From: Planctomycetaceae bacterium
GTDB taxonomy: Bacteria > Planctomycetota > Phycisphaerae > Phycisphaerales > SM1A02
DNA length: 64,000 bases
Reading direction: 5' to 3'
Assembly: GCA_947490615.1 (NCBI GenBank)
Contig: CANLHK010000001.1
Coordinates: forward strand, 124,001-188,000
A program made the translations under genes and the position numbers. The notes under the pieces were generated by a model, which was given only the letters and a program-made list of their open reading frames with translations, was not told the origin of the DNA and searched no databases. Every line of letters begins with the position of its first letter. Position 1 is the stretch's first letter. This document shows positions 36,744-39,911 of this stretch, piece after piece.

Positions 36744-37370
36744 CTACAACCGCGTCCGCCCCATGAGCGCATCGCCAATCACAGCGGGATTCGCATATTC
36801 GAGCTGAGATCCGCTGGGAAGTCCACGCGCCAAGCGCGTTGAGCGAATGCCCCGCTCACCAGCCTCGCGGGCGATCCAGAGCGCCGTGGTATCCCCTTCG
36901 ATGTCGGGATTCAGACCAAGGATGATCTCACTGACCGCAGCGGCGCGCGCGTTTTTCTCGGGGTGATCCAACCGTCCGAGCAGCGCATCAAGGGTGATTC
37001 CCTCTGGTCCCACCCCAGCAAGAGGATCAAGTCGTCCAAGAAGCACGTGGTAGACCCCGCGGTAGAGCCCCGTGTTTTCCATCACCAACAGATCCTTGGG
37101 TTGCTCGACCACGAGCACCGTCGAAGCATCACGACGCGGATCCGCGCAGATCGGGCAGGGATCGCTGTCCGCAAGACTCCAGCAGACGCCGCAGTGCTTG
37201 ACCTTTCGCTTGACATCCTCAACAGCCTGCGCAAGTTCCATCGCTTCGGCGGGAGATTGCCGCAGCACATGAAACGCCAGACGCTCGGCGCTGCGACGAC
37301 CGATGCCTGGCATCGCAGCAAACGCATCAATCAGACGACGGACGGATTCTGGATAGGCGGCGTTGGACAT
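36744..37370 (-). CDS. recR: recombination protein RecR
   Basis: 208 residues from the ATG at 37370. HhH region MPGIGRRSAERLAFHVL, a C4 zinc finger in KHCGVCWSLADSDPCPICAD, and the Toprim domain (VLVVEQPKDLLVMENTGLYR, then EIILGLNPDIEGDTTALWIA) are all present. It works with RecFO to load RecA at gaps. It lies in the classic dnaX-ybaB-recR order, 66 bases after ybaB. Confidence 0.96.
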   Translation of the reverse strand: MSNAAYPESVRRLIDAFAAMPGIGRRSAERLAFHVLRQSPAEAMELAQAVEDVKRKVKHCGVCWSLADSDPCPICADPRRDASTVLVVEQPKDLLVMENTGLYRGVYHVLLGRLDPLAGVGPEGITLDALLGRLDHPEKNARAAAVSEIILGLNPDIEGDTTALWIAREAGERGIRSTRLARGLPSGSQLEYANPAVIGDALMGRTRL

Positions 37371-37436
37371 GGCAGAGTTCAAAGTGGTGCGTCGGCGGGT
37401 GGCACGCAACGCTCAGTGGCCAACAGTCTGGTTCAT

Positions 37437-37808
37437 TCAGCCGAGTTGCTCGAGAAGTTGCGTTGGAAGATCAACACCCGCCTCCTTGGCGGCGCGTCCA
37501 AGTTCCTCCGCGATGCGCGCGCGCGCGCTGCTCAGCGCATCGTTCGTCGCGTCCGCCACCATGCGATTGGCGTACGCCGCATCCGCGGCTGAACCCGTCG
37601 CGATACCGCGCAACACCGAAGGATCGAGCGTGACCGATTCGATGCGCAGGTCACAGGTCGCGATCACGCGCACCGCGCCGCCGCCCGCAGCGCCGTGCAC
37701 TTTCGTGCTGGCTAAACGCTCACGCACTTCCGCGAGTTTTGCCTGCAAACGCGGCAAATCCTTGAGCATCCCCGCCATCTGTGTTGCTGCCTTGAGCTTG
37801 TCAAACAC
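37437..37808 (-). CDS. ybaB: YbaB/EbfC nucleoid-associated protein
   Basis: 123 residues from a GTG at 37808 with a strong GGAGG five bases upstream; an ATG nine codons earlier lacks this site. Helical N-terminus (MAGMLKDLPRLQAKLAEVRE), central strands (GAVRVIATCDLRIESVTLDP), then helical C-terminus with ANRMVADATNDALSSARARI. It binds DNA as a dimer. Position between dnaX and recR is conserved across bacteria. Confidence 0.93.
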   Translation of the reverse strand: MFDKLKAATQMAGMLKDLPRLQAKLAEVRERLASTKVHGAAGGGAVRVIATCDLRIESVTLDPSVLRGIATGSAADAAYANRMVADATNDALSSARARIAEELGRAAKEAGVDLPTQLLEQLG

Positions 37809-37831
37809 CTGAACCTCCTCGCGTGGATTGC

Positions 37832-39736
37832 TCACTCGGGCTGATCAAACTCCATCGTATCGACGCTGCTTCGTTCGTCGCGACCAACCGTATCGCCCTC
37901 GGCTGCTTCGGGCGCACTCGGCGCGTTGCTGGGCTTGAGCTCTTGACTGAAACGCGGAGTCACCGACACCACGGTCGCGTCAAGCAGTTCCGCAGCGCGT
38001 CGGACCAATGGATCCTGTCGAACGCTCGGATCGTCGACGGCCATGGCGCGCGGAGCCTCGACCGCCTTCTCCAAGGCCGAGAGGTCAAGCTTGATGCGGA
38101 CGGGCCTTCCCGCGACGCGAGAGAGCAGCGCGGCGATCGGCTCAGAGTTCGAGGCAAGGAAACTTCCTGAGTGCGGATCGAGCAGCGCGACGGTGGCGCT
38201 TCCGTCCGCCCACGCAGTGACCTCAAAGAGGTCCGTCATGGCGCGATCACGCGGACTGCGCTCTGCGACTTCTTCGAGTCGCGCGCGAAGTTCTTCGAGC
38301 GTCACGACGCGTGGGGGTGACGCGACGGCAACGGGGACACTCACCTTCGGTTCGAGCGTCGCATGCACAGCTGAGACGGTTGTCTGGACGGCCGGAGCCC
38401 CGCCACCGTTGGCCTCCCGCTGGGGCCCCGTCGCGACGCGCGCGGCGGGGTTACCTGCTTTTTTTGAGTCGGCCCCGCCACCACCCGCGAGCAAACTCGC
38501 CCCGCTGCTAAATCTCGTCGACAGGGCCAATCGCGCGAGGCACGCGTCGTAGAGCGCGCGCGGCGCACTCGAACCACGCGCATTGCGCGCCGTCGCATCG
38601 CAGAGGGCAATCGCGTGCGCGCAGAAGGCAGCGTCGGTCTGCGCCGCGAGCCCAGAAACGCGCGCGCGCATACTCGCGGCAACTTCGAGCAACTCACTCT
38701 CGCTGCCGACGGCCGAGGCGACCAACACCCAGCGCAGTCGTTCGGCGAGCAATTCCAACGCTTGTTCCACACCACTGCCGCGCTCGAGCAACCGTGCGCC
38801 ATGAGTCAGCGCGTCAGCGATGCGCTCGCTCACACACGCGTCCACGATGTCAAGCAGGATCTCGTCGTCGGGCAAACCAAAGACCTGCTCAAGCACGGCG
38901 CCATCAATGCGACCCGACGCCGAAGCGAGCAGACGATCAAGAAGCGAGAGGCCATCGCGCATCGAGCCGTTGGCCAATCGCGCCACGGCGAGCAGGACTT
39001 CTTCCGTGACCTCGATCCCTTCACCTGAGGCGACGGCGCCAAGGTGCGCGGCGATCTGCTTGGTGGGGATGTTGCGGAAATCAAAGCGCTGGCAGCGCGA
39101 CTGAATCGTCTGCGGAACCTTGTGCGGTTCGGTGGTGCAGAGGATGAACTTCACATGCGACGCCGGCTCCTCCATGGTCTTGAGCAGCGCGTTGAACGCT
39201 GGCGTCGTGAGCATGTGGACTTCGTCGATGATGTAGATGCGGTAGCGTCCACGCGTCGGCGCGAGGCTGGCGCCTGCAATCAGATCGCGCGCATCGTCGA
39301 TGCCGCGGTTGGACGCGCCGTCAATCTCGATGACATCCAGATCCTCGCCGCGCAGAATCGCATCGCCGATGGCGTCCGCCTGCGACAGCGTGCTGTCGCG
39401 GTTCAACGCGCGCGCAAAGATGCGCGCCATCGAGGTCTTGCCAACGCCGCGCGTACCGCAGAAGAGGTAGGCGTGGGCAGTTCGCCCCTTCTCGATCGCG
39501 TTCTGGAGCGTCCGCGCGATCGGCTCCTGACCAACGACTTCACCAAAGTCGCGCGATCGATACCGCCGCGCGAGCACGGTGTAGGCCTTGCCAGGCGCGA
39601 CCGCCGCGGTGGTGGCCGTCGCGGTAGCCTTTGCATCGGCGCGGCCGCTTCCACCGAACATTTCGCCCGCTGCTTCACCGACGAGCAGAGACTCGCTGTG
39701 CGCGGGAGCTGGAGTTTTTGCGCGTTCCTTCGCCAT
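37832..39736 (-). CDS. dnaX: DNA polymerase III subunit tau (and frameshifted gamma)
   Basis: 634 residues as tau. An N-terminal extension (about 50 residues) precedes the clamp-loader AAA+ domain: YRSRDFGEVVGQEPI, Walker A CGTRGVGKTS (93-102), Walker B YIIDEVHMLT (about 173), and LCTTEPHKVPQTIQSRCQRF with the arginine-finger SRC motif. The usual four-cysteine zinc module after Walker A is absent (RALNRDSTLSQADAIGDAIL). Domain III and a proline/alanine linker lead to the tau-specific C-terminus. At residues 424-426 the codons TCA AAA AAA create a -1 slippery site that would give a 428-residue gamma. An SRP RNA gene lies just upstream. Confidence 0.95.
   Translation of the reverse strand: MAKERAKTPAPAHSESLLVGEAAGEMFGGSGRADAKATATATTAAVAPGKAYTVLARRYRSRDFGEVVGQEPIARTLQNAIEKGRTAHAYLFCGTRGVGKTSMARIFARALNRDSTLSQADAIGDAILRGEDLDVIEIDGASNRGIDDARDLIAGASLAPTRGRYRIYIIDEVHMLTTPAFNALLKTMEEPASHVKFILCTTEPHKVPQTIQSRCQRFDFRNIPTKQIAAHLGAVASGEGIEVTEEVLLAVARLANGSMRDGLSLLDRLLASASGRIDGAVLEQVFGLPDDEILLDIVDACVSERIADALTHGARLLERGSGVEQALELLAERLRWVLVASAVGSESELLEVAASMRARVSGLAAQTDAAFCAHAIALCDATARNARGSSAPRALYDACLARLALSTRFSSGASLLAGGGGADSKKAGNPAARVATGPQREANGGGAPAVQTTVSAVHATLEPKVSVPVAVASPPRVVTLEELRARLEEVAERSPRDRAMTDLFEVTAWADGSATVALLDPHSGSFLASNSEPIAALLSRVAGRPVRIKLDLSALEKAVEAPRAMAVDDPSVRQDPLVRRAAELLDATVVSVTPRFSQELKPSNAPSAPEAAEGDTVGRDERSSVDTMEFDQPE
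38426..38465 (-). promoter_or_regulatory. dnaX -1 ribosomal frameshift cassette
   Basis: On the mRNA strand: slippery A AAA AAA (38465-38459, zero frame TCA AAA AAA), 8-base spacer GCAGGTAA, then a hairpin at 38450-38426 with arms CCCCG-C-CGCG and CGCG-A-CGGGG around a 5-base loop. After slipping back one base the frame reads AGC AGG TAA, stopping at 38451. This is the E. coli dnaX arrangement that makes gamma and tau in parallel. Confidence 0.8.
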
Positions 39737-39781
39737 CGATACTCGGCGGCTCCGTCACTCTTGCGATCGTGGTGGCAGACT

Positions 39782-39911
39782 TCTGGAGCCGCGGAAGACG
39801 GCCAGGCGACCGTCGGCTCGGACCGAAACGCTTATGGCTGCTGCGGTCAAGCCCTGACCAGATTCACGGCCGACCCGCCCGCCGGGCCCGGCCGTCTTCT
39901 GCGGCTCCAGA
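39782..39911 (-). ncRNA. ffs: bacterial signal recognition particle RNA (small, 4.5S-type)
   Basis: Minus-strand RNA of about 130 bases. Its ends form a 22-base inverted repeat with one mismatch (39782-39803 against 39890-39911), the closing helix. Inside, the conserved helix-8 core reads CTGGTCAGG (39862-39854) then GCTTGACCGC then AGCAGCCATAAGCG, matching the universal GGTCAGG...AGCAGCC SRP motif exactly in spacing (24 bases). The apical loop is TGAC-like instead of GGAA. It is placed 45 bases upstream of dnaX in the same orientation, as in many bacteria. With Ffh it targets membrane proteins to the translocon. Confidence 0.85.

Follow-up and report, generated by a model that had tools for sequence, protein, structure and literature searches.

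A predicted programmed -1 ribosomal frameshift signal with a covarying hairpin in a planctomycete dnaX gene

The dnaX locus and its putative recoding element

The window, which is the whole 64-kb stretch of planctomycete DNA analysed here, carries a dnaX gene on its minus strand. The encoded protein belongs to the dnaX family by its TIGR02397 (dnaX_nterm) score of 365 bits, the cut-off being 250, and its match to PF12169 (domain III; 27.7 against a cut-off of 24.4) ends at residue 404. The genes for YbaB/EbfC and RecR come after dnaX (window 36744-37835, minus strand), and the ebfC ORF has a GTG start at 37835, giving a 4-nt overlap with the end of dnaX; dnaX, YbaB/EbfC and RecR form a common cluster. 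The features of the gene are as follows:

37832-39736, minus strand: dnaX, zero frame encoding tau (634 codons, 634 aa), with TIGR02397 and Pfam clamp-loader domains; the ATG at 39736 is the ORF start
38451-39736, minus strand: predicted coding region of gamma (428 aa), in the zero frame as far as the heptamer and in the -1 frame (AGC AGG TAA) beyond it
37832-38458, minus strand: tau-specific part of dnaX, missing from gamma and probably the domain IV-V region, a name taken from its position after domain III
38473-38482, minus strand: G-rich Shine-Dalgarno (SD)-like stretch GGTGGCGGGG, 7 nt upstream of the heptamer, a possible stimulator
38459-38465, minus strand: slippery heptamer A_AAA_AAA, zero-frame phase TCA AAA AAA
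38451-38458, minus strand: 8-nt spacer GCAGGTAA, containing the -1 stop TAA (38451-38453)
38426-38450, minus strand: putative stimulatory hairpin of 25 nt, with 5+4 GC-rich pairs and a 5-nt loop

The zero frame around the site reads ...GAC TCA AAA AAA GCA GGT AAC CCC GCC..., so that a heptamer of the form X_XXY_YYZ lies in phase with a structure 8 nt downstream, which is the anatomy of a -1 programmed ribosomal frameshift (PRF) site. Downstream structures at such sites typically lie 5-9 nt from the heptamer. The hairpin, CCCCG-C-CGCG-CGCGU-CGCG-A-CGGGG, combines its 5+4 pairs with one C.A mismatch and has a folding energy of -15.9 kcal/mol. After a slip, translation in the -1 frame would run through AGC AGG to the stop TAA, the last base of which is 38451, giving a predicted gamma of 428 residues (45.1 kDa, C-terminus ...ADSKKSR) beside a predicted tau of 634 residues (66.7 kDa). 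Downstream of the run, the -1 frame meets a stop at +5 nt and the +1 frame at +115 nt. The original prediction had described the heptamer in the phase TCA AAA AAA, the 8-nt spacer and the 25-nt 5+4 hairpin, all of which agree to the base, and its -1 stop and two product lengths are reproduced on recomputation. The duplex of the G-rich stretch with the anti-SD sequence is calculated at -7.2 kcal/mol, contains interior mismatches and lies in a GC-rich background.

Taken singly, these features are unremarkable. The dnaX site is the sole A7 run of the 64-kb window, both strands counted, where shuffled sequences contain a mean of 1.41, and a -1 stop falls inside the next two codons at 38 of the 630 codon positions of the gene. 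The hairpin alone has a z-score of -1.38, with 19 of 200 shuffles folding as well; single-sequence fold z-scores of this kind are non-significant and were left out of the evidence. The 50-nt downstream fold is ordinary, with a z-score of +0.72 and a rank at the 17th percentile within the gene, a point against the frameshift reading. The window sequence alone is thus not decisive against chance, and the case rests on comparison with relatives.

The free RNA of window positions 38381-38500 (minus strand) is predicted to prefer pairing between the upstream G-rich stretch and the 5' arm of the hairpin, enclosing the slippery site. This capture of the 5' arm predominates in the window gene and in loci L002, L006 and L012, and slightly exceeds half in L011, but the hairpin is retained over the upstream pairing in the other 9 of the 14 genes compared. 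A conserved upstream-downstream RNA switch was rejected on this ground, and the upstream pairing looks incidental.

Conservation and covariation in close relatives

Of 16 genomes searched in the same genus, 13 gave a protein match, and 11 hold the site, since two yield only C-terminal fragments. Both fragments (G003:C79:38-526 and G011:C29:92-547) begin near a contig end, and the GC-rich hairpin region may be the cause of assembly breaks there. In ten of the 11 same-genus loci the A7 run keeps its phase, a -1 stop (TAA or TGA) follows at 5 nt, and an 8-nt spacer separates the run from a hairpin. The exception, L005 (genome G010), has the A7 run but a TAG at +2 and a different downstream fold, and scores 16.5 bits with the covariance model described below. 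In the sister genus g17, the A7 run, the -1 stop (again at 5 nt) and a hairpin are present at all four loci; the hairpin there is longer, its stem is offset by one position in register and it begins within the spacer.

Across the ten genus sequences with the complete element, a 10-pair helix has 95.0% of its cells paired, compared with 38.9-54.0% when one arm is slid, and both-sided changes occur at five of the ten pairs. The covariation score of these sequences was reached by none of 500 shuffles, and the same 10 pairs are predicted by RNAalifold without a supplied structure. When each gene was compared with 1000 synonymous recodings, the hairpin region proved more stable (p<0.05) in 9 of the 14 genes, including that of the window (p 0.032), while the remaining 5 of 14 do not beat recoding at 0.05. 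The original prediction thus withstands the refuting check that it had set on relatives: heptamer, -1 stop and hairpin lie at the same place, with compensatory changes in the stem.

A covariance model was built from the ten genus sequences. In a scan of 41 whole genomes with strict filters, these ten training sites score 58.6-66.5 bits, which follows by construction, and nothing else exceeds 28.3 bits, indicating that the motif is uncommon in those genomes. The model also picks out all four sister-genus elements, which lie outside the training set, at 27.1-36.2 bits. None of the genes with a seven-nucleotide slippery site tried outside g1 and g17 exceeds 19.4 bits (highest, L214), and their hairpins are thus not recognisably the same element.

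Heptamers, long A runs and polarity across the order

A survey of the order, for which the name Phycisphaerales is taken from named relatives, covered 213 dnaX loci: 141 from the window's family, 30 from f2 (the best 30 of 56 genomes with a match), 30 from f6 (the best 30 of 35), 8 from f5 and 4 from f4. Loci were picked by likeness to the window protein, and the proportions are accordingly not those of the order. A total of 203 loci were classified; the other ten comprise three without a site, three of unclear polarity because the sequence ends, and four truncated before the site. The ribosomal and transcriptional survey classes were assigned by run length and heptamer and are not measured mechanisms. 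The first comprises 73 seven-mer genes, with 62 A7, 9 G_GGA_AAA, 1 C_CCA_AAA and 1 G_GGA_AAG; the seven-mers other than A7 were taken from a list of 18 heptamers, and a few may be chance occurrences, the G_GGA_AAG of L022, with its -1 stop 170 nt away, being doubtful. The second is the long-run class, with A9-A12 in the dnaX linker, and accounts for 130 of the 203 classified loci.

The phase of the run distinguishes the two classes. All 62 loci whose longest linker run is exactly seven A have that run in the A_AAA_AAA phase (62 of 62), whereas A9 runs (23) and A10 runs (108) are spread over all three phases. No locus of the 213 has a longest linker A run of exactly six. The downstream sequence differs likewise: the 50-nt fold averages -24 kcal/mol in 71 seven-mer windows and -14 kcal/mol in 130 long-run windows, and its median percentile within its own gene is the 3rd for 39 seven-mer units and the 45th for 74 long-run units, units that are phylogenetically non-independent. 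Upstream SD-like pairing is also stronger in the seven-mer class, averaging -6.6/-6.8 against -3.4/-3.3 kcal/mol, at percentiles of 0.07-0.08 against 0.37-0.38. Seven-mer genes have a GC content of 0.76-0.80 compared with 0.66-0.70 for long-run genes, which explains part of their stronger folding; phase-locking and covariation are not accounted for by GC.

Stop codons in the other frames show a further difference. Among tau-first genes, in which the zero frame encodes tau, both other-frame stops are no more than 75 nt away in 110 of the 111 long-run genes but in only 8 of 21 seven-mer genes, and the median distance of the +1 stop is 7 nt and 103 nt, respectively. (L178 and L180, which have short tau tails, were set tau-first by rule; the run-phase and 50-nt fold counts keep them as gamma-first.) One near stop in the seven-mer class and two in the long-run class fits the assigned mechanisms, because slippage needs both stops and a -1 shift only one. 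To judge by their sequences, the long-run relatives probably use transcriptional slippage of the Thermus type.

The inverted layout, in which the zero frame encodes gamma and the -1 frame tau, occurs in 52 of the 73 seven-mer genes (43 A7, 8 G_GGA_AAA and 1 C_CCA_AAA). In these genes a zero-frame stop lies 0-39 nt past the site and the -1 frame is open for at least 224 nt or to the sequence end, so that normal reading would give gamma, and tau would be made via the shift. A tau C-terminus HMM matches the -1 frame in 44 of the 52 and the zero frame in one (L163, cut by a contig end), and finds no match in any of the three frames at 1e-3 in the other 7. Among relatives, the layout is found in g60, g18, g14, g7 and g20, in one of the two g50 loci and in 26 of the 30 f2 loci read. 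The two g50 loci differ in polarity within one genus, L122 being tau-first with G_GGA_AAA and L144 gamma-first with A7. Gamma-first long-run genes occur in f6 (L265, L268, L271, L272, L276, L277, L279-L281, L284, L286, L287, L289 and L293), among which L271 has an A12 run and its tau C-terminus in the +1 frame. At three g57 loci (L197, L200 and L224) the linker has neither an A run of at least six nor a listed heptamer, and four g57 relatives have A10; the recoding site has apparently been lost in the three.

Inverted dnaX genes as a kind are already in print (Antonov 2013; Atkins 2016). Antonov 2013 (PMC3711429) gives 17 such genes, of which nine carry ten A and were assigned to transcriptional slippage; the layout is also treated in PMC5009743, which mentions E. 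coli-like signals, and the same minority layout is noted in a 2014 motif survey (PMC4066793). It occurs in the window's relatives, but the window gene itself has the opposite, E. coli polarity.

A dnaX tree of 164 loci (LG+G4, SH-aLRT support only, with 58 of 160 inner branches open) joins the window genus to g17 (SH-aLRT 99), then to g61 and g50 (93), and then to g60 (90). All 31 rows of this clade are seven-mer genes; g60 is inverted, g50 has one locus of each polarity, and g61, g17 and g1 are tau-first. The tree requires a minimum of 11 changes of run type, 23 of polarity and 4 of polarity among seven-mer genes, counts that are minima and carry no direction.

Mechanism, product balance and origin

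The window dnaX element is very probably a programmed -1 ribosomal frameshift signal, a prediction from sequence comparison. The phase-locking of A7, the downstream structure, the class-wide enrichment of SD-like sequence and the contrast with long-run genes together make -1 ribosomal frameshifting the most likely mechanism, and this reading, already put forward in the original prediction, is supported by conservation in relatives and by the compensatory changes in the hairpin.

A rival mechanism is slippage during transcription of the A run, known from Thermus dnaX, by which mixed mRNAs would yield gamma. The Thermus thermophilus gene slips on an A9 run to the same outcome of gamma and tau, homopolymeric A lies in the same linker of the window gene, many of its relatives carry A9-A12, and Antonov 2013 (PMC3711429) considered transcriptional slippage arguable for shorter runs as well. 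The scattered phase of the A9-A10 runs would by itself leave ribosomal shifting possible in those genes, because a run of that length contains the heptamer in all frames. The window run, however, has seven A rather than at least nine, which falls short of the nine-nucleotide length at which a large share of genomes show evident anti-slippage selection (PMC1088944). It is phase-locked and accompanied by a hairpin, and it lacks the near stops in both other frames, the +1 stop being 115 nt away. Slippage has no need of phase-locking, a covarying hairpin or a distant +1 stop, and the near pair of stops typical of tau-first long-run genes is present in a minority of tau-first seven-mer genes. Slippage was rejected for the window gene on these grounds and is very unlikely. 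The alternative that heptamer and GC-rich hairpin arose by chance in a linker rich in Gly and Ala, with tau as the only product and no recoding, would suit the weak single-sequence statistics and the one A7 run expected in 64 kb. It is scarcely credible in view of the conservation of the element, its compensatory changes and the phase-locking seen across genera, and inverted relatives without a shift would have no tau.

Under -1 ribosomal frameshifting, a ribosome with two tRNA-Lys on AAA AAA would stall at the hairpin, perhaps assisted by contact of the upstream SD-like sequence with 16S rRNA. A sizeable fraction of ribosomes would then re-pair one base back on A_AAA_AAA, add Ser-Arg and end at the TAA, and the shifted product would be the gamma clamp-loader subunit with domains I-III. 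Unshifted ribosomes would make tau, with its additional C-terminal part, which in E. coli binds the polymerase and the helicase. By analogy, gamma and tau are expected in roughly equal amounts, because the in vitro shift of E. coli ribosomes, about 80% on A AAA AAG, comes very near 50% on A AAA AAA (PMC6787027).

The heptamer A AAA AAA offers the same codons in both frames (PMC6787027), and a long enough pause might let the ribosome settle near 50:50. Tentatively, the slip site may be a self-balancing switch in which a hairpin-induced pause brings gamma and tau to about 1:1 whichever frame has the stop, although the doubts outweigh the support. If true, polarity would be selectively neutral, which would account for the repeated swaps of run type and between gamma-first and tau-first, even within a genus. 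AAA is the second codon of the site in 72 of the 73 seven-mer genes (62 A_AAA_AAA, 9 G_GGA_AAA and 1 C_CCA_AAA), the exception being G_GGA_AAG, and an AAA second codon could give about 1:1 independently of the wobble reading of AAG. The symmetry of G_GGA_AAA is only partial.

A search of an open-access library brought up no account of dnaX frameshifting from a planctomycete; PMC3711429 names planctomycetes once, in a genome table. One bacterial order apparently contains, among close relatives, both recoding mechanisms and both polarities, and these natural variants make the setting of the gamma:tau ratio and the mutual replacement of ribosomal and transcriptional recoding directly testable.

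The E. coli dnaX signal (RF00382) likewise combines a -1 slip at a heptamer with a hairpin, and the window element would work in the same way. The likeness to E. coli drawn in the original prediction holds for this arrangement, but the match is incomplete, as the window heptamer is A_AAA_AAA and not A_AAA_AAG, and the hairpin differs. E. coli has a further stimulator, an SD-like sequence about 10 nt upstream, which the original prediction did not name and which is plausible in the window dnaX. With 150 candidates scored per genome, the RF00382 model matches in none of the 16 genus genomes and does match in the E. coli control; it is absent from the Rfam matches up to E 10 in window 37800-39800, all of which fall below their gathering scores. 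The predicted ribosomal frameshift, supported by covariation, is thus missed by an E. coli-type RNA model. The original prediction had left open independent retention or evolution; independent evolution is favoured and retention less so, because of the minimum of 11 run-type changes on the dnaX tree and the absence of an Rfam match, and the element is probably independent of the E. coli signal in origin. The decoding apparatus also differs, in that the genome of the window has tRNA-Lys with both UUU and CUU anticodons whereas E. coli has one tRNA-Lys (PMC6787027).
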